DNA of 64,000 nt from Lachnospiraceae bacterium (GTDB lineage: Bacteria; Bacillota; Clostridia; Lachnospirales; Lachnospiraceae): the NCBI GenBank assembly GCA_017936885.1, contig JAGBEO010000004.1:62001-126000 (forward strand), written 5' to 3'. The translations under genes were made by a program, and so were the position numbers. Of this stretch, positions 15,916 to 34,234 are shown one piece after another. The notes beneath the pieces were generated by a model. The model made no database searches. It saw nothing but the letters and a program-made list of their open reading frames with translations, and was not told the DNA's origin. Each line of letters opens with the position of its first letter. Position 1 is the first letter of the stretch.

Positions 15916-16662
15916 ATGGAAAAGCCCATTTTAAAAAGTATGCAGACCGATGAAACGGATGTCGGCAGACTGCAGATCAACGTCACCGCTGACGTGGGAC
16001 AGATCCCTATTCAGAATGCAACGATATCCATTTCTTTTACCGGAGAACCGGACAGCACGGTAGAAACCTTAAACACCGATTCTTCCGGGCAGACGGATAC
16101 CGTATCCCTTAGAACCCCGCCTTTAGAATACAGTCTGACGCCCAACTCTCCCATGCCCTATTCCGAATATACCGTGTCTGTCACGGCACCGGGATATGAA
16201 CCGGTTACCGTGTCCGGTGTGGAAGTATTACCGGACGTAACCGCCGTTCAGAATATCGAAATGACGCCTTCGGAAGTGTCTCAGGAGCCGGAAGAAACGA
16301 TCACCATCCCGGATCACACCCTCTACGGAGACTATCCGCCCAAAATCCCCGAAGACGAAATCAAGCCCATGGATGAGACCGGAGAAATTGTTTTAAGCCG
16401 CGTAGTCATTCCCGAATACATCATTGTACATGACGGTGTCCCCTCAGACTCCACCGCCGGAAACTATTACGTCCGCTACAGAGATTATATCAAGAACGTG
16501 GTTTCTTCGGAAATCTATGCTACCTGGCCGGAAAGTGCCATCTATGCCAATACGCTGGCTATCATGTCTGTTACACTGAACAGAGTATATACTGAATGGT
16601 GTCTGGGCTACCACAAATCACTGGTAAACCAATTCAAGGGAAAATTATTTACAATGAATTGA
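15916..16662 (+). pseudogene. 5' part of a SpoIID-like, peptidoglycan-binding protein gene, split by the element
   Basis: Residues 1-227 are host sequence; the last 21 codons after the GT core (16599-16600) are element DNA, ending in TGA. A CarboxypepD_reg-like beta domain (about residues 18-118) is followed by a linker and the start of a SpoIID/LytB-like domain (YIIVHDGVPSDSTAGNYYVR, ALSI-type helix and TLNRVYTEW). Joined to the 3' part across the core (GAATG-GT-ATCGC), the frame is continuous and gives a 421-residue protein ending in a PG-binding-1 domain. Such proteins are common in clostridia and probably act on the cell wall, perhaps in sporulation. The ATG at 15916 has a GGAGA site. Confidence 0.88.
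16590..16612. other. attL junction (left attachment half-sites)
   Basis: The host half (TATACTGAATG) meets the element half (GTCTGGGCTACC) at the core GT (16599-16600). A five-base match GGTGT with the right end also exists, but joining there would put the host gene out of frame; the GT alignment keeps it in frame. Confidence 0.85.
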
Positions 16663-16939
16663 TTATTCATGCATCTTCCAAGAAGTACAAGCGTTTCCGC
16701 GCCCCATACAAAACCGAACTTAAATCAATCTGTAATCAATAGCAAAACTAAAAGCATTGGCATCCAGCAATTAGGTACTAATGCAATAAGCATATCGAAA
16801 TAGTCTATAAGCAGACCATATATATATGAGGCAATGAGAGAAATGAGCTTTTTGGCATTTCTCTTTTTTTTAATCCTTATTTTCAACAAGTTTTGAAATT
16901 CCGGTTATAAAAAATTTATGAATAATGGGGGTTTCGGTC

Positions 16940-17731
16940 ATGGAAAACAACAAAGTAAATGTATTCGGCTACACAAGGGTATCTACAGAAGGGCAGGTAA
17001 AACAGGGATATTCACTGGCGGAACAGCGCGAGGAAATTAAAAAGTTCTGCGATTCCAACGGTTACAACTTATTGGAGATTTTTAAGGACGAAGGTATCAG
17101 CGGTGCTAAAGCAAATGAGGACGAAATGTGCATTGAGCGTGACGGGCTGCTGGATATGCTGGCTTCACTGAAGGAAAAAGAGATTCAGTATGTTGTGGTA
17201 CTGAGTACCAACCGCTTATGGCGGTCTGACTTAGTTAAGGTTCTGCTCCACAGGGAACTGAAAAAGAATCACGTGGATATCAAAGCAATCGACAGACCAA
17301 ATTATACGATCTACACGCAGAATCCCAATGAGATTTTTGTCAACGGTATGTTCGAACTGCTGGACGTTTATGAGAGACTGGAAATCGCATTAAAACTCAA
17401 ACGCGGCAGACTACAGAAAGCCAAAAGCGGCGGCTATGCAGGAGGCGGCATCCCATTCGGCTACTACTGCCCCAACGGTGGCAAAAAGCTATGTGTAAAT
17501 ATACAAGAAGCAAAGGCGGTGCAAAGAGTATTCCAGTTAAAACAGTTGATGCCGGATATTACCTTACAGAAATTATCCGATTATATGAATCTTGAAGGCT
17601 ACAAAGGAAGAAAAGGAAATGACTTTAATCCTATGTTAGTCAAACGTATTCTTGACAGGGAATACTTTTATAAGGGGATTTACTGTTATGGTGATATTGT
17701 CAGCATGGGAAAATATGAACCACTGCTTTGA
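16940..17731 (+). CDS. Short serine recombinase, probably a C-terminally shortened large serine recombinase
   Basis: The start at ATG 16940 has GGGGG upstream. The 263 residues hold a resolvase catalytic domain (YTRVSTEGQ with the catalytic serine; DEGISGAKANE; STNRLWRSD) and a recombinase domain (KAKSGGYAGGGIPFGYY, then RILDREYFYKGIYCYGD). The protein stops where large serine recombinases normally continue into a zinc ribbon and coiled coil (after G-K-Y-EPLL). No continuing frame is visible downstream. It may be a decayed integrase from an older element, or a naturally short resolvase of this element. Confidence 0.85.
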   Translation: MENNKVNVFGYTRVSTEGQVKQGYSLAEQREEIKKFCDSNGYNLLEIFKDEGISGAKANEDEMCIERDGLLDMLASLKEKEIQYVVVLSTNRLWRSDLVKVLLHRELKKNHVDIKAIDRPNYTIYTQNPNEIFVNGMFELLDVYERLEIALKLKRGRLQKAKSGGYAGGGIPFGYYCPNGGKKLCVNIQEAKAVQRVFQLKQLMPDITLQKLSDYMNLEGYKGRKGNDFNPMLVKRILDREYFYKGIYCYGDIVSMGKYEPLL

Positions 17732-18067
17732 TTTTGGGATTGTGGCTGCGTGAAGCGGTTACAGTGTGAAAAAATCGGGTTGCAGTATGGGTGTTTTCAA
17801 CATGAGACAAAAATCGGGTAATTTTATCTGTAATTATTCAGAAGGGTGTTTTTGGGTATGGACATATGACAGATCGCAATAATAGCAGTGGGGTAAATTT
17901 GGTATGCATTGGGTAGTGAAAAAAATGGGGTTTCGGAATTTTGAAAATTTCGGAAGGTATTGATGGCATAAAAAACGGTTATGTTTATTTGATTTGTCTG
18001 ATCAACGTGATTTCATAGCAGAGACAGAGAGGTTTACACTGCTACAATGAAATCTGATTCTTCCAAC

Positions 18068-18116
18068 AGCAGTAAAGGTTTCACAAGCATATGATGAAAC
18101 ATTTACTGCTTTTTTC
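18068..18116 (+). terminator. Strong hairpin with T-run
   Basis: The arms AGCAGTAAAGGTTTCA (18068-18083) and TGAAACATTTACTGCT (18095-18110) pair with one mismatch around an 11-nt loop, followed by six T residues. It probably ends transcription from the short recombinase or from a small RNA upstream. Confidence 0.7.
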
Positions 18117-18282
18117 ATTTCATATAATGGCGTATAAAAAGTACATAATTGTGATATATACATACACACCACGAAAAAAGAGGGTGAATGATATAACACA
18201 ATAAGATAAAAGGACACAATAAGTATGATAAGAAGAAAATGATGACAATAAAAATAAAATGGTGGCAATAATTAATTTATGA

Positions 18283-18311
18283 TTGACAGGATAATATCAT
18301 GGCGGTACAAT
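18283..18311 (+). promoter_or_regulatory. Consensus-like sigma-A promoter
   Basis: TTGACA (18283-18288), a 17-bp spacer and TACAAT (18306-18311). Only the third base of the -10 box departs from consensus. It should drive the small gene at 18346. Confidence 0.75.
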
Positions 18312-18345
18312 CCACCCCAATCTGAATCGGGAGGAGATGTACGCT

Positions 18346-18561
18346 ATGAGTAACATGGTCAGATATGAGGAATGCTTGGAAATTGTCTCGTTACAGTTAC
18401 AGTCTCTGCATAACATGATAACCACATTACATATGGGATTATTAAAAGAAAACATAGAGAAGCAGGCTCTTGACTGTATTGAATGTATTGATTTCTGTGT
18501 GTTGCATATCAACGGCATAATACAGGAAAAACAGACCAAAGCTGAAGGCATGAGTGGATAA
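18346..18561 (+). CDS. Small helical protein (unknown)
   Basis: 71 residues, start at ATG 18346 with GGAGGAG 9 nt upstream (an earlier ATG overlaps the site). The sequence is two or three amphipathic helices (EECLEIVSLQLQSLHNMI, QALDCIECIDFCVLHING) with three cysteines. I recognise no family. It is convergent with the XRE repressor and shares a bidirectional terminator with it. Confidence 0.65.
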   Translation: MSNMVRYEECLEIVSLQLQSLHNMITTLHMGLLKENIEKQALDCIECIDFCVLHINGIIQEKQTKAEGMSG

Positions 18562-18577
18562 GTCCGCTCATGCCTTC
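18544..18577. terminator. Bidirectional terminator between convergent genes
   Basis: GAAGGCATGAGTGGA (18544-18558) and TCCGCTCATGCCTTC (18563-18577) form a stem of 14-15 pairs with a 4-nt loop. It overlaps both stop codons. Confidence 0.7.
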
Positions 18578-18861
18578 ATTACTTTTATAAGTGATTGTAA
18601 AACCTTTATCTGTTCATTATTCAGACCCTCAGTGTCTAAAATAACAGCGGGTGTATCGGTTGTTTTACCTAAAAGATAATCAGTCGAACATTTATATAAG
18701 TAGGCTAATGACAATAGATTTTCTGTACTGGGTGTTCTTTCGCCTGTTTCATAGCCACTGACAATCGACGGAGAAATGTTCAGTTTTGAAGCAACTTCTC
18801 TCTGGGAAAGATTATTTAACGTTCTAAGTTCTTTCAGCTTTTTAGGTAATTCTTTGATCAT
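18568..18861 (-). CDS. XRE-family repressor 1
   Basis: 97 residues from ATG 18861 (MIKELPKKL), with GGAGG upstream. A Cro/cI-type helix-turn-helix fills residues 5-60 (LSQREVASKLNISPSIVSGYETGERTPS, then LAYLYKCSTDYLLG). The C-terminal tail (LNNEQIKVLQSLIKVMK) resembles the tail of repressor 2 at 21642. It has no protease or peptidase domain. A 10-bp-arm palindrome directly upstream (18874-18899) is its probable operator, giving autoregulation and control of the divergent gene at 19003. Confidence 0.88.
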   Translation of the reverse strand: MIKELPKKLKELRTLNNLSQREVASKLNISPSIVSGYETGERTPSTENLLSLAYLYKCSTDYLLGKTTDTPAVILDTEGLNNEQIKVLQSLIKVMKA

Positions 18862-18873
18862 ATTGTGTTTTCC

Positions 18874-18899
18874 TCCTACACTTATTGTAAAGTGTAGGA
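18874..18899. promoter_or_regulatory. Operator palindrome for repressor 1
   Basis: TCCTACACTT and AAGTGTAGGA are perfect 10-bp arms around ATTGTA. The site lies 13 bp upstream of the repressor start and in the divergent gap to the gene at 19003. Confidence 0.7.
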
Positions 18900-19002
18900 A
18901 AACACATAAGGAGTATATTGCAAACACTTTAAGAGTTGATTAACAACACAAAGTATATTAAAATAATCATGCGAACAAAATATACAGCATAGGAGAAAAA
19001 AC

Positions 19003-19236
19003 ATGGATAATGAAATAAGCGGCAAAAGCAAAGATTATGATTTACATGAGTTGATTGATGATTTACAGGAAAAGCTGGAGGATATACAAAACATAACGCA
19101 GCTTTTAGAAATGTCTCTGGCAAATAATGGCGATGATCCACATATCATAAAAAGTGTGGGTATCATAGACAAGATGCTTGCGGCAATTATCAAGGAAGAT
19201 TTAGAAGCATTAAGAAATTCAGTACAACATGAGTAA
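19003..19236 (+). CDS. Small acidic helical protein (unknown)
   Basis: 77 residues, AGGAGA site before ATG 19003. It is acidic and predicted helical (LHELIDDLQEKLEDIQNITQLLEMSL, then IIDKMLAAIIKEDLEALRNS). It has no known domain. It is divergent from repressor 1 and probably controlled by the same operator. A role as an antirepressor or directionality factor is conceivable but unsupported by sequence. Confidence 0.65.
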   Translation: MDNEISGKSKDYDLHELIDDLQEKLEDIQNITQLLEMSLANNGDDPHIIKSVGIIDKMLAAIIKEDLEALRNSVQHE

Positions 19237-19265
19237 ACAATTATATAACATTTTAGATTGAAAAT

Positions 19266-19317
19266 GGCTGGTACTTCTTCGATTCATTGAAATTGGGAAT
19301 TACCAGCCCCTTGTTTT
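19266..19317 (+). terminator. Terminator after the 77-residue gene
   Basis: GGCTGGTA (19266-19273) pairs with TACCAGCC (19301-19308), followed by TTGTTTT. Confidence 0.65.
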
Positions 19318-19364
19318 AAATGAAGCATATTGCTAATTGAATTACGGACATAAAACAACTAAAA

Positions 19365-19393
19365 GTTGTAAAATGCAACAGATGTGATATAAT
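19365..19393 (+). promoter_or_regulatory. Promoter and operator copy 1 of the repressor-2 type
   Basis: The 15-bp dyad GTTGTAAAATGCAAC (19365-19379) covers the -35 box TTGTAA (19366-19371). The extended -10 TGATATAAT has its hexamer at 19388-19393. The same dyad overlaps the -35 region of the promoter at 21987 and recurs at 22047. It should make the gene at 19449 repressible. Confidence 0.7.
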
Positions 19394-19448
19394 GATGCTA
19401 CATAAAGTAGTAATATACAACAAATTGTAATGTTTAAGGAGACAGTAT

Positions 19449-20180
19449 ATGAAAAAGAAAACACTAACAGGAATAGGACTTATTGCAGTTCTATGTATTG
19501 CAGGGGGAATTGTATTTTATAGCAATAGTAGAAATGAGAATGACGAATTGCAAGAAACATTAGCGACCATTGGGGAGGAAGGTGCACCCATCGCAGACAC
19601 CCCCTCATCTACCGAGTCGGGCAGTATGGGTTCAGAGAATTTAAGTGATTTAGGATATGAGGACGGTGATTATGTTGACCCTGCATCAGAAGAAATAGTT
19701 GAGGACACCACTTCCACAGACTCCACATCATCCACATCCACCTCCACCTCAACCATAGAGATTGTAGAGGAATTAGATGAAATGATGTATGCAGTATCTA
19801 ATTGCAATGCGCGTAAGGGAGATTCAACATCCTATGAAGTCCAGACTCAGATTGAACGTCTCGCATACCTTCATGTGACAGGACTCACAGCGAATAATTG
19901 GTATAGGATAGATTGGAGTAACGAATCAGTTTATGTGCGTGCGGATCTCCTCTCCCCCACCAAACCCACTACCAATAACACAAATACTGAGAACAGTAAC
20001 AACAATGAAAGTACTCCAAGTTCAAACAGTTCATCAACTACAAACGACAATAGTTCATCAAGCAGTAGCAGTCAACAAGAACTTGTAGATCAAATCAATC
20101 AAGGTTTATCAGAACTCGGCGGCGATTGGGGAGATATTGGTAATGTTACAATTGGTGGAGAAGGAGCAGGTAAGTGGTAA
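19449..20180 (+). CDS. Secreted or membrane-anchored SH3-like protein with low-complexity linkers
   Basis: 243 residues. The N-terminus MKKKTLTGIGLIAVLCIAGG is a signal peptide or anchor without a lipobox cysteine. An acidic and Ser/Thr-rich linker (about residues 30-105) leads to a bacterial SH3-like domain (about 112-168: NCNARKGDS, YLHVTG, NNWYRIDW, VYVRADLL). A second Asn/Ser-rich linker (about 170-210) and a short Gly-rich tail follow. It is probably displayed outside the cell and cell-wall-binding. As a cargo gene under an element-encoded operator it may alter the host surface; that is inference. Confidence 0.75.
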   Translation: MKKKTLTGIGLIAVLCIAGGIVFYSNSRNENDELQETLATIGEEGAPIADTPSSTESGSMGSENLSDLGYEDGDYVDPASEEIVEDTTSTDSTSSTSTSTSTIEIVEELDEMMYAVSNCNARKGDSTSYEVQTQIERLAYLHVTGLTANNWYRIDWSNESVYVRADLLSPTKPTTNNTNTENSNNNESTPSSNSSSTTNDNSSSSSSSQQELVDQINQGLSELGGDWGDIGNVTIGGEGAGKW

Positions 20181-20275
20181 TACTAGAACTCAACTATATA
20201 TCCATTCCCAACAACACCAATCACACTAAATGTATAAACAAACCCAATTAGGGGGTATAATATATAATGACCCCT

Positions 20276-20327
20276 AGTTCCAAGAGAGGTACCACACCAT
20301 TCTAAGTGGTATCTCTCTTATCACTTT
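20276..20327. repeat. Hairpin-bearing direct repeat, copy A
   Basis: AAGAGAGGTACCAC (20282-20295) and GTGGTATCTCTCTT (20306-20319) form a stem with one mismatch. The whole segment recurs 807 bp downstream (copy B, 21083-21134). It lies between the SH3-like gene and the gene at 20345, so it acts as a terminator or leader hairpin. Confidence 0.7.
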
Positions 20328-20344
20328 AAAGGAGGTACAAATCA

Positions 20345-20719
20345 ATGAAAGCACAACAACAATTAAAGTATCAAGTAAACCACCATGTATTAAATGTAGA
20401 AGTATATAACTTCAACAATGATGATAATTACCATTTAAAAATAGACATAAGCTTCTATGAAAAGAATAACCCACATCCCGAACTTGCAAATACATATTTT
20501 GGGCATTTAAACCTCATTAACAAAGAATACACTCAAACCCTTAGGGTTTATGGATTTAAGCTAGATGTAAATGGAAATGATATATCCACGCCCAACCCAT
20601 TCGTACCACAAGAAGCAAAATCATGGTATAAAGATGGCTTACCAAAGAAGTATCATAAAATAATACATGAGATAGTTGATTTATATAGAAATTTACTTCC
20701 TGCTGTTGTAGCTCAGTGA
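20345..20719 (+). CDS. Unknown 124-residue protein
   Basis: The ATG follows AAAGGAGGT, a very strong ribosome binding site, directly behind the copy-A hairpin. A -10 TATAAT lies at 20256-20261. The sequence has alternating beta-like segments (LNVEVYNFNN, YHLKIDISFYE, YTQTLRVYGFKLDVNG) and a helical C-terminus. It has no membrane segment or known family. Its last 7 bp overlap the end of the convergent gene at 20713. The corresponding place in copy B of the duplication lacks this gene. Confidence 0.65.
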   Translation: MKAQQQLKYQVNHHVLNVEVYNFNNDDNYHLKIDISFYEKNNPHPELANTYFGHLNLINKEYTQTLRVYGFKLDVNGNDISTPNPFVPQEAKSWYKDGLPKKYHKIIHEIVDLYRNLLPAVVAQ

Positions 20720-21009
20720 AAATGATATAACACATTATATCCTCTGGGATTAGGTTTAACAGGTGGTATAACTTTCTCAGTAGTGATATTTCTATGAGAT
20801 TTACAGCTTGTTCCATTTGAGTAATCATATCCATTAACAGTTTCAAGTGCTGCACGAATACTTTTATAAATATCTTTTACATCGCAGTTATTTAGATATG
20901 ATTTAATTATATTATTAACTTCCCAAGAATAATAATCCTTATCAGATTCAAAAATTGTGGTATCACAAAGTAACTCAATAATTTTATTTCTAGTAGATTC
21001 AGAATTCAT
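20713..21009 (-). CDS. Winged-helix-like protein, tandem paralog A
   Basis: 98 residues from ATG 21009 (MNSESTRNKI), with AAGGAG about 10 nt upstream. It is clearly paralogous to the next gene (shared STR-KII-LLCDTTIF, S-LN-CDV-DI, SIR-ALET-NGY-YSNGT, and the identical end RGYNVLYHFH). The order helix, helix, S-W-V---IKS-L, then SIR-ALET and a beta-like NGY-YSNGT suggests a winged helix. No family is assigned. Confidence 0.7.
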   Translation of the reverse strand: MNSESTRNKIIELLCDTTIFESDKDYYSWEVNNIIKSYLNNCDVKDIYKSIRAALETVNGYDYSNGTSCKSHRNITTEKVIPPVKPNPRGYNVLYHFH

Positions 21010-21082
21010 ACTTTGCACACTCCTTATCATTAGTTTATTTTTGTTATTATAATACACCAACCACCATAATTTTAGCAATGAG

Positions 21083-21134
21083 TTTCCAAGAGAGACACCA
21101 CCCCATCACACAAGTGGTATCTCTCTTCTCACTT
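21083..21134. repeat. Hairpin-bearing direct repeat, copy B
   Basis: AAGAGAGACACCAC (21088-21101) and GTGGTATCTCTCTT (21114-21127) form the same stem as copy A. It serves as terminator for the minus-strand gene at 21150. A 39-bp identical block at the gene ends (20717-20755 and 21154-21192) extends the duplication. Confidence 0.7.
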
Positions 21135-21149
21135 TCAACTCACCCAACC

Positions 21150-21443
21150 TCAATGAAAATGATATAACACATTATATCCTCTGGGATTAGGTCTAATAGC
21201 TTCAACTTTCTCAGTGGTAATGTTTCTGTATGGTTTGCATATAGTTCCATTTGAATACTTATATCCATTGAGAGTTTCAAGTGCTTCACGAATACTGTTA
21301 TCAATATCACTTACATCACAATCATTTAGACGAGATTTAATTTCATCAGCAACATCCCAAGAATGATAACACTCATTAGGTTTAAATATTGTAGTATCGC
21401 AAAGTAGTTTAATAATTTTCTTTCTAGTAGATTCACCTTCCAT
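21150..21443 (-). CDS. Winged-helix-like protein, tandem paralog B
   Basis: 97 residues from ATG 21443 (MEGESTRKKI). It is the second member of the pair described at 20713, roughly two-thirds identical by eye. Here the residues between CDTTIF and SWDV differ most. A paralog pair with the same orientation and the same flanking hairpin shows a recent tandem duplication. The function is unknown; a DNA-binding regulator is the best guess from the predicted fold. Confidence 0.7.
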   Translation of the reverse strand: MEGESTRKKIIKLLCDTTIFKPNECYHSWDVADEIKSRLNDCDVSDIDNSIREALETLNGYKYSNGTICKPYRNITTEKVEAIRPNPRGYNVLYHFH

Positions 21444-21580
21444 ATTTTATAATCTCCTTCTCTTTTGTATATACAGATATCTACAATATCCATATTCTAA
21501 ATTTATGCTACATAATGTGTATATTTGATAAATCATTGAGTATACTAAGTAATGGACTAGGGAATAAAACTAGGGGACAA

Positions 21581-21617
21581 ATAGACGGGTATAATGATAT
21601 GATTTATACCCGTCTAT
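21581..21617 (-). terminator. Terminator of repressor 2
   Basis: Perfect 14-bp arms ATAGACGGGTATAA (21581-21594) and TTATACCCGTCTAT (21604-21617) with a 9-nt loop, 25 bp beyond the repressor stop. Confidence 0.75.
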
Positions 21618-21641
21618 TTCCATGAAATGTTTACTTTTTAA

Positions 21642-21938
21642 TCATTTAGATTTGCGAAAACAATCAGCAGTTAATTTTAATATCTTAATCTGTTCTTCAC
21701 TTAACCCCTCTAATGACATGGTTTTCGGTTCTTCCATATTTATTCCTACCAAATATTCCATAGAAACTTTGTATATGCTAGCTAGCTTGGCAAGTGTATC
21801 TATAGATGGTAAACGCTCATTATTCTCATAAAATCCTATTGTGCTGACAGACACTCCTACCAATTCGGCAACCTGTTTCCTTTTAAGATTGTTATGAATA
21901 CGTGTAATTTTAAGTTTATTTCCCAGATTTTCTAACAT
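21642..21938 (-). CDS. XRE-family repressor 2
   Basis: 98 residues from ATG 21938 (MLENLGNKLK), with GGAGGAG just upstream. The helix-turn-helix domain spans residues 7-62 (KRKQVAELVGVSVSTIGFYENNERLPS, then LASIYKVSMEYLVGI). The tail (GLSEEQIKILKLTADCFRKSK) resembles repressor 1, so the two are related. It is divergent from the gene at 22075. The dyad GTTGyAAAnTrCAAC near both regulated promoters is its likely target. Confidence 0.88.
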   Translation of the reverse strand: MLENLGNKLKITRIHNNLKRKQVAELVGVSVSTIGFYENNERLPSIDTLAKLASIYKVSMEYLVGINMEEPKTMSLEGLSEEQIKILKLTADCFRKSK

Positions 21939-21986
21939 ATGTACTCCTCCCATAGATTCATGTTATTAAAAAAGGCGCTTCAATGG

Positions 21987-22061
21987 GTTGCAAACTACAA
22001 CGTTAAGAAGTATAATGTGACTAAAATTAACAAAATATTACATATTGTTGTAAAGTACAAG
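21987..22061 (+). promoter_or_regulatory. Promoter with two operator copies upstream of the tail-anchored protein gene
   Basis: GTTGCAAACTACAAC (21987-22001) covers the -35 box TTGCAA (21988-21993), and TATAAT follows at 22011-22016 with a 17-bp spacer. A further near-copy GTTGTAAAGTACAAG lies at 22047-22061, between the expected start point and the ribosome binding site. Confidence 0.72.
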
Positions 22062-22074
22062 AGAGGATAAGCAA

Positions 22075-22578
22075 GTGGATAAAAAGACAAAACAAGCATG
22101 GACATATGTTAGAACCTTAAATGAATATTCTAAGGAATGGGATCAACCGTTGGGAGAGTTGATTCATAAGCTCATAGATAATATGGCTGAGAGTTCGATA
22201 GAGGACAGGCAAGATTTTATAGAAGGTCTTATTGTTTTGCACAAAAAGAAAAAAATAATCGGTGACATTAAATTTGAAAAAAACAATGGTGAAATAGATG
22301 AATCCAACTCTGGCTATACTATAACACTTCAAGATGTGAAGTTAAATCCCTATACAAAGATATGGTATTGGATACCATTTAAAATTAAAAATATTCAGAA
22401 TGATTTGGATATGAACGAAATAACAAGTGACGTAAAAAAATGGGATATGAACGAAATAACAAGTAATGTAAAAAAAATAGAAAATAATGCTCATTTGCAA
22501 TTCCTAGTAAATACCATAATACCTATTCTTACATTTATTATTGTAGTTTTGGAATTTTTTGAAAAATTAAGTAACTAA
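22075..22578 (+). CDS. Tail-anchored membrane protein (unknown)
   Basis: 167 residues from GTG 22075, with GAGG 8 nt upstream. A helical N-terminal region (to about residue 70) and a short beta-like part are followed by a 12-residue tandem repeat (DMNEITSDVKKW, DMNEITSNVKKI; encoded by 36-bp repeats starting at 22408 and 22444). A single membrane helix sits at the C-terminus (about 143-160). No signal peptide, so the bulk stays in the cytoplasm. No family recognised. Confidence 0.7.
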   Translation: MDKKTKQAWTYVRTLNEYSKEWDQPLGELIHKLIDNMAESSIEDRQDFIEGLIVLHKKKKIIGDIKFEKNNGEIDESNSGYTITLQDVKLNPYTKIWYWIPFKIKNIQNDLDMNEITSDVKKWDMNEITSNVKKIENNAHLQFLVNTIIPILTFIIVVLEFFEKLSN

Positions 22579-22600
22579 AGCTATTGCTTAGAAAAATCAA

Positions 22601-22628
22601 AGTACCATGTCAATTTTGGCATGGTACT
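22601..22628 (+). terminator. Terminator of the tail-anchored protein gene
   Basis: AGTACCATG (22601-22609) and CATGGTACT (22620-22628) pair perfectly and are followed by a T-rich stretch. Confidence 0.75.
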
Positions 22629-22643
22629 CTTCTATTTTTAAGA

Positions 22644-22697
22644 ATTAAAAGTGCACTGCCAAAAAGAGAATAAAATTAAAAGTGCACTGCCCAAAAA
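22644..22697. repeat. Two direct copies of a TTAAAAGTGCACTGCC element
   Basis: ATTAAAAGTGCACTGCC plus an A-run occurs at 22644-22665 and 22675-22697. A third, shorter copy (AAGTGCACTGC-AAAAA) is at 24368-24384, and an inverted copy (AACAGTGCACTTTTAAT) is at 27139-27155. The centre GTGCAC is palindromic. Confidence 0.65.
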
Positions 22698-22744
22698 ACT
22701 GCATGGTTTCCAGTTAAAAAGAAAAAGACTGGAGGCTGGTTTTT

Positions 22745-23389: not shown

Positions 23390-23428
23390 TAGTATTATTT
23401 AATTTTATGGAATTTTAATAAGGTTAGT

Positions 23429-23457
23429 TTGTAATTCCCATAGTCCGGCGGTATAAT
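23429..23457 (+). promoter_or_regulatory. Sigma-A promoter of the JAMM-protein gene
   Basis: TTGTAA (23429-23434), a 17-bp spacer and TATAAT (23452-23457), 30 bp before the gene. Confidence 0.65.
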
Positions 23458-23486
23458 AAAGATATAGATATGGAAGGTATGGACTA

Positions 23487-24292: not shown

Positions 24293-24314
24293 CTAAGTCT
24301 ATATAAAAACTGAC

Positions 24315-26679: not shown

Positions 26680-26680
26680 T

Positions 26681-26983
26681 ATGGGTGTAATGGTTATGTT
26701 CAATAATAAGAGACTGGACGGCAAAGGACTTGTCAGCATAGTTGATACAACAGAAAACGGCTATACATTTCTTGATGTTGTGGAGACTGCCAAAACTACA
26801 GATGCCACAGGCAGTATCAGTGTCAACGGGGAGGAAATACCGGAAGGATATTTTCAATTAGATATGAAGAATAACTCAGCTTCACTGACCACTCCTGCCC
26901 TGCCATGGATTCTTCTTGATTTGGATAAGGTTCATGTGGATATCAATATATATGGGGATATCGGTTTATGTGGAAAAGAATAA
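26681..26983 (+). CDS. Small beta-rich protein (unknown)
   Basis: 100 residues from ATG 26681 (MGVMVMFNNK), with GGAGG 10 nt upstream inside the previous gene; an in-frame ATG at 26597 has no site. The sequence alternates beta-like segments (GLVSIVDTTENGYTFLDVVETAKT, GSISVNGEEIPEGYFQLDM). No family recognised. Confidence 0.65.
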   Translation: MGVMVMFNNKRLDGKGLVSIVDTTENGYTFLDVVETAKTTDATGSISVNGEEIPEGYFQLDMKNNSASLTTPALPWILLDLDKVHVDINIYGDIGLCGKE

Positions 26984-27697
26984 CAGCATCCTTTTAGGAA
27001 ACATATGCTTTTCTGAAATACTGGATGGGCTATTTCATCAGATAAGGAAACAAAAAGCCATATACAACATAGGAAACGTTGTGTATGGCTTTTGTCATGC
27101 TTATAATATAGAAGAAAAATTGATACAACGATTTTTTTAACAGTGCACTTTTAATAAGTAGAAATAATTTTTTTCAGAAAAAATGATGTGATTTAGGGGT
27201 GGAAACATAGGATTTCAAAAAAATATTTTTGCTGGGTTACATGGATAAGGAAAAAATTTGAGGTATTCATAAAATAAACTGGTTGTTAAATTCTGTACTC
27301 GTTAGATGATTCAAAAAAGCATAAAGGGTTGATTCTGGGTAAATGACCACAATGACAGCGTAATGGTATTTACATGAAATGTAAAATATAAATAGCTTGT
27401 GATATCTGACTGCTGGCAGTATTGATTTTCAGAGAAATGAGAGAAACGTTAATGTCATTTATCGGCATGGAAAAGTAAACATTGTAAAAAATAAAATGGT
27501 ATGCATAAATTGTACTGGTTGATAAAGTGATATCAGCCTTTCGGATTTTTAATGTTGGAAGTGAGAATTTGTAAAAATATCCATCTGACCTAGATAGTTT
27601 CGGTTTACAAAGATTCCATCTGCAACAAGGCATTAAAAAAAAAGGATGATTTATGACTCCGCTGACTGTATAATGGGGGCAGGGGGATGGTGAATGT
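26984..27697. other. Non-coding region inside the element
   Basis: About 710 bp. It holds a terminator (27053-27093), an inverted copy of the GTGCAC repeat (27139-27155) and AT-rich sequence without a ribosome binding site followed by a long frame. A -10-like TATAAT lies at 27669-27674, 24 bp before the next gene. Confidence 0.55.
27053..27093 (+). terminator. Terminator after the 26398-26983 gene pair
   Basis: AAAAGCCATATACAAC (27053-27068) and GTTGTGTATGGCTTTT (27078-27093) pair with one mismatch and end in Ts. Confidence 0.78.
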
Positions 27698-28447
27698 ATG
27701 GCTGAGGAAAAAAAGAATAACACTAATAATAAGAAGAAAACAGGAAGTTTTAAAAATCTGTATAATAAAGATAACGGACTACCCATTATGATCAACCTCT
27801 ATGTGATCAAATATATTTATTATCATATCAATAAGGCTGATCGTTTTATGGAACAAAAGCCGGCAGGCAAAAAAGCGAAAGCGTACCCTATCTACCAAAA
27901 CGAGATCCCCATCTCACGGCAGAGATTTGACAGAATCAATAAGGGCATGACTTTTGAAATATCATCTGGTGATGCAAATTTCATCATAGAGAAATTCGGA
28001 ATAGATAATCAATATTTCAGAAAGAATGACCCTGTCGCTTTTGAAATAAAAGGGATTGACCTTACTGACTGGAAGTGTTTTTACAACGACCGTTATAACG
28101 ACGGCTACAGCCTGCCTGATAACATAGATGATGACATATGCGAACAGCGGGCTAAAAAAGTATTAAAGACATTGAAAGCGTTAGTAAAATCTGACTGGGA
28201 AAACAATCTGAAAAAAGATAATCCGTTGTTTGCTGTTTTATTCTATTTTCATTATGGGAAAAGGTCTGACAGACCAAACAGCATCAAAATCATTAAAGAT
28301 ACTTTACGAGAACTGGACTACAAAGAATGGGATCATGAAAATGCTGCGTCGTTAAAGGAAATATACGGACTTCTGAAAAAACATTATAATTATATCAATT
28401 CAATCATGATGATTGATAAACTTCGTAATGAAAAAAAATCTGAATAA
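27698..28447 (+). CDS. Unknown 249-residue protein
   Basis: ATG 27698 follows AGGGGGATGG. The N-terminus is Lys/Asn-rich (KKNNTNNKKKTG); the rest is mixed alpha/beta. The segment IPISRQRFDRINKGMTFEISSGDANFIIEKFGID resembles the helix-turn-helix region of an XRE-like domain, so DNA binding is possible. Trp/Tyr-rich middle and helical C-terminus (LKEIYGLLKKHYNYINSI). A strong terminator follows. I do not recognise the family. Confidence 0.68.
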   Translation: MAEEKKNNTNNKKKTGSFKNLYNKDNGLPIMINLYVIKYIYYHINKADRFMEQKPAGKKAKAYPIYQNEIPISRQRFDRINKGMTFEISSGDANFIIEKFGIDNQYFRKNDPVAFEIKGIDLTDWKCFYNDRYNDGYSLPDNIDDDICEQRAKKVLKTLKALVKSDWENNLKKDNPLFAVLFYFHYGKRSDRPNSIKIIKDTLRELDYKEWDHENAASLKEIYGLLKKHYNYINSIMMIDKLRNEKKSE

Positions 28448-28875
28448 AAAACCCAAAATTGACCTTTAAATGGTGGTGTGCTAAAGTGCACCACCATTTT
28501 TTTGTTTATTGGTTACATTTTTCAATTCTGTGTGCCATATTTATTTTTCAAGCGTGGCTTTATTCCACATATGCGGTTCAATATTGCGGTAAAATTATGC
28601 AAATATACATCACAATATTACTATTATATAATTTGAGCATAAGGACAGCGAAGTGGGGTGATGAATATGATTGAGTAATGCAGCGCAGTATAACGTACCT
28701 TGACAAGAGTAGACGGATTGGAATTTTGTGGATATGCACACATTAGGAAAATCATGTTGAAAGCATATAGATGTTGGCGCAGAAAATCTAGGCTATCCCT
28801 AGGCATATATGGGGAAAGCCTGCTGTACTTATGCATTGCAACAAAAATTTTAGTTTAATATGGGAGGTTTTACTC
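28448..28875. other. Intergenic region before the DUF927/methylase pair
   Basis: About 430 bp, with a terminator at 28468-28505. Sequence near 28690 (ATAACGTACCTTGACAAG) resembles part of the palindrome at 31339-31362 on the far side of the DUF927/methylase pair. No gene is visible. Confidence 0.5.
28468..28505 (+). terminator. Terminator of the gene at 27698
   Basis: AAATGGTGGTG (28468-28478) and CACCACCATTT (28489-28499) pair perfectly and run into a seven-T stretch. Confidence 0.82.
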
Positions 28876-30441
28876 ATGAAAAATAAAAAATACATAAATT
28901 TAGCGGTGGTTCTGTTCTCTAATGAGCGGGCAACCGTGGTTGCACTTGCAGTAAAAAAGAAAAATGGAAAGGTGAATGTCCGCCTGCATGCCTGCGGCAA
29001 AGATGGCGAGATCAGTAATCCTGTAGAGATTACGCGAAGCCAGATAGACAAGGCGAGGGAATTAGCCGACTATGCGGATTTGGACAGGCGCGACATTAAG
29101 AAGATCAAAGACACCCTGATGGCGCGCTGGTTCTCTCTGCCCCAGCTTGAAGAAACCGAACACATCGGATTTCAGAAGGATGACAATGGTTTTCTGACAT
29201 CCTACATGGGGTCGCGTTGTTACGACATACACGGAAACAAGCTGGTCAAAGACGAATTTGTGTCTCTCCCAAAATGTATGGGTAATGTGCCGGACGTTGT
29301 CAACACGCTTAACCGTTACATGGCAAAAAATATTAAGCGGGAAATTGTGATGGCACATGCTCTATCGGGTGCGGTGTGCGGACTTCTTGGCAAAAACATC
29401 ATTTTGTCGGTTGTCGGCGAAAGCAGCAAAGGAAAAACCACCGCGCTTAAAATGGGCGCCAGCTTTTTCGCGCAACCCGATTACGAGACTACGTTCCTAA
29501 AATGGTCTTCCACGCAAAATGCGCTGGTCAGACAGATGAGTGATCTTAGCGGCGTTAATGTTCTTATAGACGATACCCAGCTCAGCAGGATTAAGACGTT
29601 TGAGCAGATTATCTACAGCTTTGAGAGCGGACAATCGATCGATCGCCTTGTACACGGCAATGAGCTGTGCAAACGTTCCTACTGGTCTGTTTCCATCGGG
29701 ATCACAGCGGAACATTCCGTTCTGGATTCCATCAATGCGCTGGGTGCTGTGGCACGTCTAATAGAAATGCCAGTCCGTAAGGACGATTTATTTGATGATG
29801 TGGCGGAGGTCGCAGAAATCAAAAACCTCTATAACAACCATTATGGTTCAGTCGGTGCCACTTTCGTCAGATTCCTCCTCACATGCTATGGACAAAAGAC
29901 GATTTCTAGGCTGGTCAAAGATGAAGGTCAGCGATCCTGTCAGGTCTATGAAAAGAGAATCGGAGACAACACTCTGTTGAAACGGCATCTCGATAATGAT
30001 ATTGCTGTGATGATCACGACCGCAAAACTCGCAAATCAATGTTTAGGCTTCCATTTCCATGTTCCTCTCCTGCGCTCTGCACTGCTGGGGCTGTGTGAAG
30101 AAAATTATAGAACGTTTAACGAAAACACGTTCGAGTTTCTTGTCGCGCACACGGTTTACAAGGATATCCTCGGCACGGGTCGAAGATTATACCCGCAAAA
30201 TGAAAGGGACGGCAGGATTGTCATTCCATCTGAACTGATGAAGGGTCTGCTGGCAAAATATTCCGCGCAGCTAAAAGTAAAGGCGGCAAGAATCAAGGCA
30301 GAACTGGCGCAGAATGGCATGTTATCCGAGAAAGCTGGTACGTACTGCTGGAACCACACAATAGACGGAAGCACCGTTACCGGTTACGAACTGATTATAA
30401 CAAATAGTGAGGATGACCAGAATGAAAAAGGGCATATTTAA
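28876..30441 (+). CDS. DUF927-family ATPase
   Basis: 521 residues from ATG 28876 (MKNKKYINLAV), with GGGAGG 8 nt upstream. The DUF927 region covers about residues 120-420: a Walker A motif GESSKGKTTALK, a Walker B-like NVLIDDTQL and sensor-like TAEHSVLD. DUF927 proteins are P-loop ATPases found in phages and integrative elements, often beside primases or helicases. Here there is no primase, so a replication role is only one option. The gene is markedly richer in G+C than the integrase and the repressor genes around it, and the methylase start lies inside its 3' end. Confidence 0.85.
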   Translation: MKNKKYINLAVVLFSNERATVVALAVKKKNGKVNVRLHACGKDGEISNPVEITRSQIDKARELADYADLDRRDIKKIKDTLMARWFSLPQLEETEHIGFQKDDNGFLTSYMGSRCYDIHGNKLVKDEFVSLPKCMGNVPDVVNTLNRYMAKNIKREIVMAHALSGAVCGLLGKNIILSVVGESSKGKTTALKMGASFFAQPDYETTFLKWSSTQNALVRQMSDLSGVNVLIDDTQLSRIKTFEQIIYSFESGQSIDRLVHGNELCKRSYWSVSIGITAEHSVLDSINALGAVARLIEMPVRKDDLFDDVAEVAEIKNLYNNHYGSVGATFVRFLLTCYGQKTISRLVKDEGQRSCQVYEKRIGDNTLLKRHLDNDIAVMITTAKLANQCLGFHFHVPLLRSALLGLCEENYRTFNENTFEFLVAHTVYKDILGTGRRLYPQNERDGRIVIPSELMKGLLAKYSAQLKVKAARIKAELAQNGMLSEKAGTYCWNHTIDGSTVTGYELIITNSEDDQNEKGHI

Positions 30442-31315
30442 ACACGTCGGTGGAAAAAACGGTTTGTTGGGAGCAGAGCTTACGGCTCTGCTCCCCCAAG
30501 TACCGCCTGACGTATACATCGAACCGTACGGAGGCAGTTTTGGATTAGCCATTCAGTCAGACTATAATCCGGACAAGATTCTTATGATACACAATGAGTA
30601 CGATATCCGTGTACATTCTATTTTCAAAGCGGTTACTACTTATCCAGAAGAAACATTAAAGGCAGTATATTCACTGTTGGAAAAGTTTGACTGCGGAAAA
30701 TGTACACTGGACTATTTTAGATTTGTTTTTGACTTATACGACCGTACCGGCATTATGCTGTTTGATGATGATATCTTTAGGGGTGCTGCTGCTTGGATAC
30801 TAAAATCAATAACCTGTCATGGAAACTGCAGGTCTTTAGTTAGGTCTGAATCCGGTGACACGAAGGAAAAACTTGAAAAGTATTTTGAAAGACGCGAAGA
30901 AACAGCCCTTGATCTGGAAGGTGTCATTGCGCTGAATTATGATGCCATGGATATTCTAAAAGAGATTAAAAACGCGGGCAGGTCACATGATATGAAGATT
31001 TTCTTATATATCGATGCACCCTATTCCCACAGCGGGAAAAGGACTACCTCCGGCAATTTGTATAACAAGGATATCAGCAAGGATGATAAAGAAATCGTAG
31101 AACTGGCTGAGATACTCGTTGAGATAAACCAATGTACCGACTGCAAGATAATGGTGTCGGAATATGACAGCCCTATATATAATTCCATCTTAACGGAAGA
31201 AAACGGGTGGCATAAGGTAAAGGTCTGTGACATGCCTAAGCGTGCGTACTTTTCGCTTAATGGTGAGTGCAAACCGATAGAAACAGAATATGTCTGGCTT
31301 AATTATGATAGGTGA
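30422..31315 (+). CDS. D12-class DNA adenine methyltransferase-like protein
   Basis: 297 residues; I choose ATG 30422 (MKKGIFKHVGGKNG) with GAGG 9 nt upstream. It overlaps DUF927 by 20 bp. The AdoMet motif K-H-V-GGK and the EPYGGSFGL segment (about residues 33-41) match Dam/D12 enzymes. The catalytic motif reads DAPY (about 200) instead of the usual DPPY. A proline-to-alanine change there is unusual and may alter activity, though the other D, P and Y are kept. The protein lacks the usual end YGR-N segments that I would expect. It could be a solitary methylase protecting the element. Confidence 0.78.
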   Translation: MKKGIFKHVGGKNGLLGAELTALLPQVPPDVYIEPYGGSFGLAIQSDYNPDKILMIHNEYDIRVHSIFKAVTTYPEETLKAVYSLLEKFDCGKCTLDYFRFVFDLYDRTGIMLFDDDIFRGAAAWILKSITCHGNCRSLVRSESGDTKEKLEKYFERREETALDLEGVIALNYDAMDILKEIKNAGRSHDMKIFLYIDAPYSHSGKRTTSGNLYNKDISKDDKEIVELAEILVEINQCTDCKIMVSEYDSPIYNSILTEENGWHKVKVCDMPKRAYFSLNGECKPIETEYVWLNYDR

Positions 31316-31639
31316 TATGCTCATCTAAAAATTTACGGGATAACGTACTTTCCCCTTGACAAACGTAAGGGTTTGGCGTTATCCCTATCCATGCCAAAAA
31401 CATAATTGGGTGTACCATTGCAAACACACTGAAATTTAAGCATAATTTAGTGTTTTTAAGATGGTACACCGAAATCAAAACTCTGTAATCTTATCTATAT
31501 TCTAATTAACTTAGGTTTTTATCCAAAAACTAGATAGACGTCTAAAACCATGCATACTCATTACCTTAAAAATCCACCCTCCTATAAAATAGACATTTCC
31601 GTATAAGAGTTATCTTTTAGAAATTTGGAGGTAACTTTT
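31316..31639. other. Intergenic region with long palindromes before the integrase operon
   Basis: About 320 bp. An inverted repeat GGGATAACG/CGTTATCCC (31337-31345, 31377-31385) is followed by GGTGTACCAT/ATGGTACACC (31409-31418, 31461-31470). The second encloses an inner imperfect dyad ACACTGAAATT/AATTTAGTGT. One of these may be the methylase terminator. The integrase-operon promoter should lie at 31500-31620. Confidence 0.6.
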
Positions 31640-31921
31640 ATGAATCAACGCATTAACGCACTAAAGCAGAGAGAATACAATACTTCTTTCTCTCATACCC
31701 TAGAAACAAGAAATCAAGTGAGGTCAACATCAACAATGACATCACCAGTTCAGTCTAAATACAAAATAGAGTTAGAGTTTCTAGGAACAGTAGATAACGC
31801 TCAAGTGGAAGAAGAAATAATCACTATATTAAAGAGACAATTTTTGTCTAAAATTACGTCTATTGATTCTCTACCCCAAGCGTTACAATCCAATCCCATT
31901 AAAGGAGGTACGAAAGAATGA
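31640..31921 (+). CDS. Small protein translated with the serine integrase
   Basis: 93 residues from ATG 31640 with GGAGGT 8 nt upstream. Its TGA overlaps the integrase ATG by 4 bp. The N-terminus is polar; the second half (YKIELEFLGTVDNAQVEEEIITILKRQF) looks like a beta-alpha segment. No family recognised. Genes just upstream of serine integrases sometimes encode recombination directionality factors, so this is a candidate; the sequence alone does not show it. Confidence 0.72.
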   Translation: MNQRINALKQREYNTSFSHTLETRNQVRSTSTMTSPVQSKYKIELEFLGTVDNAQVEEEIITILKRQFLSKITSIDSLPQALQSNPIKGGTKE

Positions 31922-33672
31922 GTAACAAGAAACGAGTAAGAAGTTTATTAAGAGTAAGTTCTAAGCAACAGTTACACAATGATGATATTCCTATTCAACG
32001 TGCAGAAATAGCAAATTATATTGCTAAGCAACCTGACTGGGAATTAGACCGTGAGTATATTGAAAAAGCAGTAAGTGCATTCAAAAACTCATTTGACGAA
32101 AGAGAAGTATTATTGGAAATATTAGAAGATGCAAAAGCCCATAAGTTTGATATACTTCTCACATTCATGTCAGACCGAATAGGTCGAAAAGAAGAATATA
32201 GTATGTATATAGCACTCCTTAACAAGTTGGGTATAGAAGTTTGGACTATCAAAGAAGGTCTCCTCTCCACTAAAGGGGCTACAGAGCGACTTACCCTATT
32301 TCTTAAGTTTTGGTGCAACGAAAGTGAATCAAGAAAAACAGGTGAACGAGTAAAAGCAGCTCAAACAGAAATGATTAAACAAGGTAAACATGTAGGTGGA
32401 TATGCTCCATATGGTTACGAATTTGTTTACAGTGGAGAAATAGGAACTCATGGTAGAGCAATCAAAAAGCTACAAATAGTAGAAAGTCAAGCAATTATTG
32501 TCAGAGAAATCTTTCGTTTATGCGTAGAAGAAAATCTAGGTTCCTACGCTATTGCAAAAAGATTAAATGAACAACATATACCATCAATCAATGGTAACGA
32601 GTGGAAATCCTGTACTATTTCAGATAGGTTAAAGAATCCAATATACATGGGATATCTTACATACAACAGAAGATCTCACAAGGATACCTATAAAAAGAAT
32701 CCTACAGAAGAATGGGTATTTTCAGAGAAACCATTAGAAGAATTACAGATAGTGACTCCTGCTATATGGCATAAAGCCCAGCAATTAAGGGAACAGCGTA
32801 AATCCCATATCAACACTACCAAAGAAACCTATCCAATAAAATCTTCTGGTAGTCTTCCACTCATGGGTTTAATATATTGTGGTTCCTGTGGTTGCAGATT
32901 AACAAATGGTTCTAGGTATGACCAATGGTATTTAAAAGATGGTACAAAGGTAAAGAAAATGTCACGCAGATACAAGTGTACTCAACGTGCTAATGCTTCA
33001 ATAAACTGCCAAGGTTCAGCGCTTTATAAAGCAGATGAAATTGAACCAATCATATTTTCAGAGATTAACAAGTACATGACCAACCTAAAGCAATCCAACT
33101 TATACGAAGATATACTCAAAAACCAAGAGAAAACTCGAAAATCAATACAAAAAGAGATAGCATCCATTGAGAAGGAATTAAAATCCATTCAAGCAGATAT
33201 AGAAACCTTGGAATTGCAGATACCTCAAGCATTACGCGGAGAAGGTGTATTCAGTGCAGAAAAATTATCTGATCTCCTTGCTCAAAAGGAAACCCAAAAA
33301 TCAGAGATTCAGAATGATCTCACTCAAAAGCAACAAGAGTATGACTCTACAGAACTGACAAACAAAGATATGAATAGATTTACTCAGATAATTCCTAACT
33401 GGTCACAAGAGTTTAATGAGGCTCCCACTCACATAAAAAAGGTACTCCTTTCCAAAATCATAGAAAGAATAGAAATAGAAAAAGATAGAATAAAAATTAT
33501 ATTTAAAATCAGTGAGAGTGACTTTCAAAATGAATCTCATTTTCAAGCTGGGATAAAGATTGAGGATAATGCTGAGGATAAGGTTGAAAATAGGGTTGAA
33601 AATAGGGTTGAAGGTGGTTCCCATTTACCAAGGATTATAGGTGGTTCCGGTGTATCGCAATCAAGGCTATAA
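31918..33672 (+). CDS. Large serine integrase of the element
   Basis: 584 residues in the integrated form. Resolvase domain with catalytic Ser (RVSSKQQLHNDDIPIQ), LLTFMSDRIGRKEEY, then the recombinase domain (GKHVGGYAPYGYEF to about residue 275), a zinc ribbon (CGSCGCRLTNG, then CTQRANASINCQG), a long coiled coil (about 400-490) and a variable end. The ribosome binding site AAAGGAGGT lies in the preceding gene. The frame crosses attR: the last codons after the GT core (33652-33653) are host DNA ending at 33672. In the excised circle the frame would continue through 16601-16742 for 46 further codons after the core. Confidence 0.93.
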   Translation: MSNKKRVRSLLRVSSKQQLHNDDIPIQRAEIANYIAKQPDWELDREYIEKAVSAFKNSFDEREVLLEILEDAKAHKFDILLTFMSDRIGRKEEYSMYIALLNKLGIEVWTIKEGLLSTKGATERLTLFLKFWCNESESRKTGERVKAAQTEMIKQGKHVGGYAPYGYEFVYSGEIGTHGRAIKKLQIVESQAIIVREIFRLCVEENLGSYAIAKRLNEQHIPSINGNEWKSCTISDRLKNPIYMGYLTYNRRSHKDTYKKNPTEEWVFSEKPLEELQIVTPAIWHKAQQLREQRKSHINTTKETYPIKSSGSLPLMGLIYCGSCGCRLTNGSRYDQWYLKDGTKVKKMSRRYKCTQRANASINCQGSALYKADEIEPIIFSEINKYMTNLKQSNLYEDILKNQEKTRKSIQKEIASIEKELKSIQADIETLELQIPQALRGEGVFSAEKLSDLLAQKETQKSEIQNDLTQKQQEYDSTELTNKDMNRFTQIIPNWSQEFNEAPTHIKKVLLSKIIERIEIEKDRIKIIFKISESDFQNESHFQAGIKIEDNAEDKVENRVENRVEGGSHLPRIIGGSGVSQSRL

Positions 33673-34234
33673 TTTTACCATTACTTCGTCAACCGCATAC
33701 GATCAGAAATGGATTCGCGGCCGCAATATCTACACCAATATTGACAGACTGGTAGATACCATCTTCGCCAACTTCCTCTCCCGTCCCGGTGTACGCCAGC
33801 CTATCTTTACTTCTTACTGCGACGGCAAAAATGTAACCTGCAGCGGTTTAAGCCAGTGGGGTTCCAAGTATCTTGGAGATGAGGGGTATTCCCCCATCGA
33901 GATTATCCGCTACTACTACGGCAACGATATGTATATCAACTCTGCCGTGGCCGTATCCGGGGTGCCTTCTTCCTGGCCCGGTTACAACCTAAGTGTCGGG
34001 GCCTCCGGTGATAAAGTGCGGCAAATCCAGCAGCAGTTAAACCGTATCGCCCAGAACTACCCTGCCATCCCGCGGATCACGGCAGACGGCGTCTACGGTT
34101 CCGCTACCGCCAATGCGGTACGTACCTTCCAGCGTATCTTCAATCTGCCCCAGTCCGGTATCGTGGACTACCCGACCTGGTATAAAATCTCTGAGATCTA
34201 TGTGGGAGTCAGCAGGATTGCAGAGCCGGGATGA
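33641..34234 (+). pseudogene. 3' part of the split SpoIID-like, peptidoglycan-binding protein gene
   Basis: Host sequence starts after the core at 33654 with TAT CGC AAT. It encodes the rest of the SpoIID-like domain (SSTAYDQKWIRGRNIY, SYCDGKNVTCSGLSQWGS, IEIIRYYYGNDM) and a PG-binding-1 domain (ASGDKVRQIQQQLNRI, ITADGVYGSATANAVRTFQ). The first 4 codons belong to the element and lack a credible ribosome binding site, so this part is probably silent until excision. The rejoined protein is 421 residues. Confidence 0.88.
33643..33665. other. attR junction (right attachment half-sites)
   Basis: The element half (GGTTCCGGT) meets the host half (ATCGCAATCAAG) at the core GT (33652-33653). The excised attP would read GGTTCCGGT-GT-GTCTGGGC. 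Confidence 0.85.

Follow-up and report, generated by a model that had tools for sequence, protein, structure and literature searches.

What becomes of a gene whose coding region is cut in two by an integrated element that carries its own recombinase? This question is raised by a locus of a gut bacterium, in the Lachnospiraceae bacterium contig JAGBEO010000004.1 (GenBank assembly GCA_017936885.1), of which we analysed positions 62,001 to 126,000 of the forward strand, a stretch of 64,000 nucleotides that we call the window (coordinates below are those of the window, and + marks features on its forward strand). Here an integrated element of 17,053 bp (16601-33653, one GT counted) interrupts a gene that we identify by sequence comparison as sleC, which encodes the spore cortex-lytic germination enzyme of clostridia. 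Since related bacteria bear different elements at exactly the same place, the arrangement suggests that the element must leave sleC for spores to germinate. We consider it probable that this is a sleC-intervening element which its own serine integrase cuts out, and that this probably takes place in the mother cell during sporulation, in the manner of the skin element.

A preliminary description of this DNA had proposed that taking out 17,053 bp between two GT dinucleotides would leave a single 421-codon frame, and this was reproduced: when 15916-16600 is joined to 33654-34234 and a single GT is retained, the result is an open frame of 1266 nt, made up of 421 codons and a terminal stop, with no internal stop. 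The 5' part of sleC (15916-16600, +; residues 1-228 of 421) covers an Ig-like pro-region and the first part of a SpoIID-like catalytic domain, and the 3' part (33652-34234, +; residues 229-421) covers the rest of that domain and PG_binding_1. In the split state, the 5' frame continues to a stop at 16662 and the right-hand frame spans 33641-34234. Pfam detects a partial SpoIID in the left half and PG_binding_1 in the right half; in an intact orthologue SpoIID occupies residues 190-252 of 425 and spans the joint. The GC content of the element (0.37) differs from that of the gene halves (0.49 and 0.52), which agrees with insertion.

The position of the crossover core required more than the reading frame. 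Taking the five-base match GGTGT (16598/33649) as the joint does break the frame, as had been claimed, with a stop at codon 262; however, the chance 5-mers AATGG, GGCTA and TTTAC near the ends likewise leave the frame open to the last stop, making the frame alone insufficient for choosing the core, and we therefore placed the joint by comparison with relatives. Where relatives have the gene intact, its halves meet directly at residue 228|1, with no gap between them. In a table of 89 rows of element ends, GT is the shared dinucleotide at 64/65 left and 67/67 right ends; after removal of the 7 rows that are second copies of the same genomes (L131 and L153, from the same assembly, were both kept), the positions of the attL GT (16599-16600, +) and the attR GT (33652-33653, +) are common to 57/58 and 62/62 distinct ends, respectively, the sole exception being L119, with CT. 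The proposal that GT is the true core thus stands on the joint of the relatives and on the ends of related elements, and not only on the frame argument first given for it.

The identity of the split gene emerged from a same-genus orthologue. The intact copy L003, whose N half is 93% identical to that of the window, aligns with solved pre-pro-SleC (PDB 9H68) over residues 20-423 of its 425 (E 3e-128), and because this match covers nearly the whole length, the split gene is, by sequence, sleC and not spoIID. The generic SpoIID or cell-wall label was dropped in favour of SleC, the Pfam and NCBIfam matches being weak and none of them naming SleC; the earlier suggestion that the element is tied to a cell-wall or sporulation gene was borne out in this more specific form. 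In C. difficile the sleC transcript and protein are reported to be sigmaK-dependent (PMC3738446), SleC is described as the main enzyme for germination of clostridial spores, and its disruption in C. difficile and C. perfringens leads to a severe germination defect (PMC3567191). A sleC paralogue of about 600 residues is present in many same-genus genomes, and in other loci this paralogue is itself interrupted at the corresponding residue.

Among 77 same-genus genomes, the window's own included, sleC is joined at 228|1 in 54 (three of these copies being interrupted by contig ends), split there in 19 (G000, G002, G006, G008, G015, G024, G030, G034, G035, G037, G039, with the right half only, G041, G044, G047, G048, G061, G066, G067 and G071), and absent or truncated in four. 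The gene is absent from G007 and G056; in G027 and G058 (L088 and L087) it stops at residue 168-169, is followed by other sequence and has no 3' half that we could find, an instance of another kind of loss. The inserts of 11 split genomes, covered from end to end, are unlike one another in length and content; an integrase of one family is present in all but one of the 11, the exception being G067; four further, partly covered inserts also bear an integrase of this family, and in G015, G039, G041 and G061 the contig ends before the integrase region. The refuting outcome named beforehand, relatives that carry the same broken gene and no element, was thus for the most part not seen, G067, whose insert has no integrase, being one carrier that fits less well. 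As a side observation, the joined sleC of G025 (L086/L056) lies within a 793-residue open frame and is possibly fused at its N-terminus.

The integrase of the window element is a large serine integrase of 584 residues (31918-33672, +) with Resolvase, Recombinase and Zn_ribbon_recom domains and a PHROG integrase match (E 1e-88). Its frame crosses the core, with its stop codon past the GT, inside sleC (33652-33672), so that in the integrated state its final codons come from host DNA, and in an excised circle these codons would be different; the related integrase of L114, unlike that of the window, ends before the core. When named genomes were scanned with an alignment of 11 integrase sequences, the best 80 of 189 confirmed stretches represented 79 loci, of which 77 carry half of sleC or of the paralogue at the joint, while the remaining two run into a contig edge. 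In a wider set a sleC half lies near 92 of 99 integrase loci. The seven without one are L175 and L178, at contig edges, L095, which is the first integrase of a two-integrase insert that does lie in sleC, and the distant integrases L107, L110, L111 and L112 (28-32% identity), which are sited elsewhere. In a separate draw of 397 genomes from the family, the integrase was found in at least 12 at a strict cut (E<=1e-120, with at most three candidates scored per genome, which makes 12 a lower bound), and all 12 are at the sleC site; nine repeat loci of the named-genome scan, one is the window itself and two are new. On these sequence comparisons, one integrase family is tied to the sleC or paralogue site in many Lachnospiraceae.

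The attachment sites have the structure expected of such a system. The left (33622-33651, +) and right (16601-16630, +) arms of the reconstructed attP form an imperfect inverted repeat around GT, matching at 15 of 26 positions; across the family the median number of matching positions, of 26, is 15 for attP, 7 for attB and 11 for mixed arms, and single elements range from 7 to 21. A tree of 83 of 86 integrases (left out were L153, L171_2, and rows shorter than 450 residues or with X) has two deep groups, and the paralogue-site label changes six times on it, at least five of them by well-supported branches, against a mean of 8.7 for shuffled labels. These repeated changes indicate that the target has shifted repeatedly between sleC and the paralogue; the paralogue-site integrases L126, L136, L147 and L149 form one clade. 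We note here that L069 (G024) is a composite 11.3-kb insert with two integrases, of both deep subfamilies, in one sleC.

A putative mother-cell-type (sigmaK/E-like) promoter motif precedes sleC. In the window, the sigmaK/sigmaE-type -10 motif CATACCCTA lies upstream of the gene (15801-15809, +). A -10 motif of this type was found within 130 bp upstream of 31/31 intact and 41/49 split genes, where shuffled sequences predict 3.9 and 5.9, and a fuller motif before 22/31 and 31/49 (0.8 and 0.9 expected), counts that are not independent since the sequences are related; second genome copies were removed before these counts, as before those of C halves, omega and integrase synonymous divergence (dS) given below. 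Split paralogues have the -10 in 3/6 cases and the fuller motif in 2/6, and 29 other window genes used as a control have the -10 in 2 (2.9 expected) and the fuller motif in 1 (0.5 expected). The gene also goes together with spoIVA: in a table compiled by hand for genomes outside the genus, themselves related and hence not independent, 44 have both genes, 9 spoIVA only, 2 the sleC gene only and 13 neither (Fisher p 1.2e-6), with G143 entered as spoIVA-negative by elimination, G142 (C half only, E 3e-18) as lacking the gene and G111 (N half only) as having it. The window genome has spoIVA, and a sigmaK-like factor that scores 275.6 bits, below the model cut-off of 298.65.

Taken as a mechanism, these features would work as follows. 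The large serine integrase would recombine attL with attR at the GT, probably with the help of a directionality factor, for which a small open reading frame (ORF) just upstream of the integrase is the candidate; 17 kb would be removed precisely and the 421-codon frame restored. The most likely time would be late sporulation, in the mother cell, where C. difficile makes SleC. Since the excising mother cell dies, the germ line would retain the element, as with skin in sigK.

Inserts with both ends seen measure 1,901 to 17,053 bp (43 rows, 38 after removal of second copies), and long inserts are under-represented because flanks in the named-genome scan were limited to 6 kb. At the lower end, four inserts of 1.9-2.1 kb, each lying in the paralogue, consist of a small ORF and the integrase and little besides. 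At the other extreme, the IMG/VR contigs L195 and L196 (68 and 146 kb) carry the integrase, an apparently unintegrated attP, tail genes and NrdD, with no sleC half within the 21 kb examined; the IMG/VR members L193 and L194 are integrated in the gene. With some hesitation, and as a proposal that could well be wrong, we suggest that in Lachnospiraceae sleC and its paralogue may be shared docking sites for competing phages, larger elements and domesticated 2-kb cassettes, the carriers of which would rebuild germination capacity in each mother cell by programmed excision.

Several observations weigh against excision from sleC as a step of sporulation, some of them peculiar to the window. Its sleC has the -10 motif and no strict -35 at the right spacing, so that the full motif is absent; the joined attB is absent from its own assembly, in which no excised form was seen, and the window attP was not found in IMG/VR. 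The nearest relatives by sleC (G075, G057 and G029) have the gene intact, and the window insertion therefore most simply arose after the splits from them, the host dS between the window and G075 being 1.15 (N half) and 0.82 (C half). The selection on split genes described below was consequently shown for other species and not for that of the window, whose nearest relatives lack its insertion; the integrases nearest to its own, L115 and L114, are 73-75% identical. In favour of excision, a second full sleC was not found in the genome, which is 93.6% complete, and partial C-half matches with stops look like a decayed paralogue. If the window species sporulates and depends on SleC, it must excise the element.

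From the side of the integrases, mother-cell timing is weakly supported, because the excess of sporulation-type motifs before them is mild at most: the -10 occurs in 30 of 81 upstream regions (18.8 expected), no clear excess, and the full motif in 8 of 81 (3.9 expected). This would suit the rival account that survives best, one we think unlikely, in which excision happens only as phage or element induction or as random switching, so that populations are mixed and selection on sleC comes from an element-free minority, with no sporulation programme involved. The mobility of the family speaks for it. In five groups (L162/L164/L165; L061/L071/L083/L077; L062/L146/L151; L185/L187; L155/L191) the integrases are far closer than the hosts, being near-identical in distant hosts in L162/L164/L165 and L061/L071/L083; L140/L144 and L167/L177 are intermediate, phage contigs bear the apparently free attP, and the accessible text on the yin element of C. 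botulinum reports integrated and excised forms together in one culture (PMC10747680). Shared descent of an insertion was accordingly shown for a minority, many integrase pairs being mobile or intermediate, which is a further point against the mother-cell account. That minority comprises seven pairs in which integrase and host have diverged alike (L063/L064, L114/L115, L148/L173, L172/L183, L174/L181, L156/L138 and L135/L139). Nucleotide alignment is continuous over flank, both halves and insert in L135/L139 and in the paralogue pair L147/L149, and over the available parts in L114/L115 and L148/L173; L126/L147 are syntenic around a 2-kb integrase-only paralogue insert, the integrases being 69% and the host halves 82-83% identical. 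Against induction or random switching, the 1.9-2.1-kb integrase-only inserts that persisted through speciation carry hardly anything else that could help them spread, and in C. difficile SleC is a mother-cell product made under sigmaK (PMC3738446).

A plain insertion hot spot, at which sleC is permanently lost in lineages with no further need of spore germination, is improbable to a higher degree. It draws on losses of sporulation reported for some gut lineages (PMC8340488) and on the state of certain inserts: of 69 C halves of split genes, three are broken, and in G067 the sleC insert (L067) lacks an integrase and the integrase of the paralogue insert (L104/L176) has an internal stop, a case that perhaps reflects excision in trans, or decay. 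Some insertions thus look like dead ends, and this too counts against regular rejoining. Most C halves do not follow that pattern: 64 of the 69 have a frame that runs uninterrupted to its natural stop, two more are cut by a contig end, and spoIVA was found in 16 of the 19 same-genus genomes with split sleC. In the seven pairs that share an insertion, the ratio of non-synonymous to synonymous change (omega) of the halves is 0.00-0.06 at dS 0.20-0.95, against 0.07-0.17 for the integrases. Median omega is 0.053 for N halves (13 pairs) and 0.034 for C halves (19 pairs) between split genes, not all of which share one insertion, and 0.068 (30 pairs) and 0.023 (38 pairs) between intact ones; atypically long or short halves and those with low identity (paralogues) were excluded. 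These values rule out permanent inactivation as a general rule, and we keep it for single cases. Since the halves stay under purifying selection while split, a gene this constrained and cut within its catalytic domain should, on this sequence evidence, be rejoined somewhere in the life cycle.

It is very unlikely that the halves are made as separate, cooperating proteins with no need of excision: in the window and in some relatives the right arm chances to provide a start codon that lies a few codons upstream of the 3' half, but this codon is derived from the arm and is not common to all element types, and the cut falls within the SpoIID-like catalytic domain. An assembly artefact can be dismissed, for although many of the relatives are metagenome bins, the same joint occurs, with inserts of differing content, in the strain records of Lachnospiraceae bacterium 28-4 (a 1.9-kb insert in the paralogue), 10-1 and A2, Mediterraneibacter catenae SW178 and Sellimonas caecigallum SW451.

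Removal of the element in the mother cell would place it among the sporulation-gene intervening elements, whose features it shares: it lies within the coding region of a germination gene, brings its own serine recombinase, and its precise excision would restore the frame. As far as the accessible texts describe them, the known systems resemble it to different degrees. The gin element in gerE of Bacillus cereus ATCC10987 (PMC5595907) is likewise a non-phage insert with a serine recombinase that splits a sporulation gene, and has an att inverted repeat around a central dinucleotide; its excision restores gerE, whereas excision from sleC is inferred here from sequence. It is unlike the sleC elements in being 28.6 kb long, with three recombinases, in a regulator gene and in few named strains, whereas they occupy a germination enzyme gene, use one integrase family, measure 1.9 to 17 kb and occur in many genera. 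The skin elements in sigK of B. subtilis and C. difficile (PMC5025042) share the large serine recombinase and the expected excision in the mother cell; they differ in that sleC is a sigmaK target and not a sigma factor, and in that for their probable directionality factor the window element has a candidate only. The yin element in yabG of C. botulinum (PMC10747680) also sits in a SigK-regulated gene and, because YabG processes pre-pro-SleC in C. difficile (PMC10747680), touches the same germination pathway; unlike the sleC elements it is prophage-like, known from one strain only, and in another gene and site. Excision of the prophage SPbeta from spsM likewise rebuilds a spore gene (PMC4191935), but SPbeta is a complete phage in a spore-envelope gene, and there is no phage structural match among the 10 larger proteins of the window element scanned against PHROGs, for which reason we did not class it as a prophage.

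The window integrase matches the XisF excision recombinase of NCBIfam far below the cut-off (E 2e-23), and CcrC of the staphylococcal cassette chromosome (SCC) at 75.6 bits (E 3e-21) against a cut-off of 900. The SCC insertion site is rlmH and that of the window element is sleC, and on score and site we did not place the window element in the SCC family.

The targets of known intervening elements given in the accessible text of PMC10747680 are sigK, spsM, spoVFB, gerE and yabG, and sleC is not listed with them. PMC5025042, as far as accessible, mentions sleC solely as a target of sigmaK, in the accessible part of PMC5595907 the word is absent, and a large survey of integrases (PMC10083194) names neither SpoIID nor sleC in its main text and has sporulation in a reference only. 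The use of sleC as such a target was unreported in the titles and abstract openings of the matches listed among openly accessible papers, several of these lists giving the best 12-20 of many.

If the proposal of shared docking sites and programmed excision is right, a 2-kb cassette of small ORF and integrase would be smaller than any other developmental DNA-splicing switch known to us and, as far as we know, the first to act on the gene of a germination enzyme, selection having maintained it across speciation. Many gut Lachnospiraceae probably pass between hosts as spores; if sleC needs splicing at the level of DNA, mobile elements would have the power to block germination, and finding sleC split in a genome would not imply a species unable to germinate. 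Parallel inserts of varied size at one dinucleotide offer a graded set of natural cases, from phage down to minimal cassette, in which to ask how a parasite becomes a switch, and several named strains carry such an insert.

Within the window element, the small ORF (31625-31921, +; 98 residues) overlaps the start of the integrase by 4 nt and is a candidate recombination directionality factor or integrase partner. With a crude rule for calling ORFs, a small ORF was seen before 62 of the 86 integrases, and the ORFs so found are not all clearly of one type; counterparts occur also in the 2-kb inserts, and pooled omega over five pairs is 0.24. Upstream lie a D12/Dam-like adenine methyltransferase (30407-31315, +), below the Pfam and NCBIfam cut-offs, a DUF927 or primase-helicase-like protein of 536 residues (28831-30441, +), which resembles the SCC helicase Cch1 (E 1e-19, below the NCBIfam cut-off), a DUF5688 protein (24534-25484, +) and a SprT-like protein (22745-23389, +). 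No phage structural genes were found among the 10 larger proteins scanned, all of whose PHROG matches are to families of integrase/invertase, helicase/primase or methyltransferase, or of unknown function; a role of the element in defence was set aside, one of the 10, the methyltransferase-like protein, having weak matches only. At the left end, a second serine recombinase of 268 residues (16925-17731, +) is cut short within its Recombinase domain, and may be a remnant of another element or mark a composite. Two tandem ORFs (20713-21078 and 21150-21443) are related, with a DNA repeat of 269 nt at 78%, and direct and inverted copies of a AAGTGCACTG-centred sequence (22633-22698, 24354-24384 and 27132-27166) are perhaps operator or replication sites. 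Outside the element, the window encodes a DUF5722 protein (45225-46877); six genomes of the genus (L063, L064, L065, L067, L068 and L069) have relatives of the DUF5722 cargo protein of L063 in the insert that separates their sleC halves.

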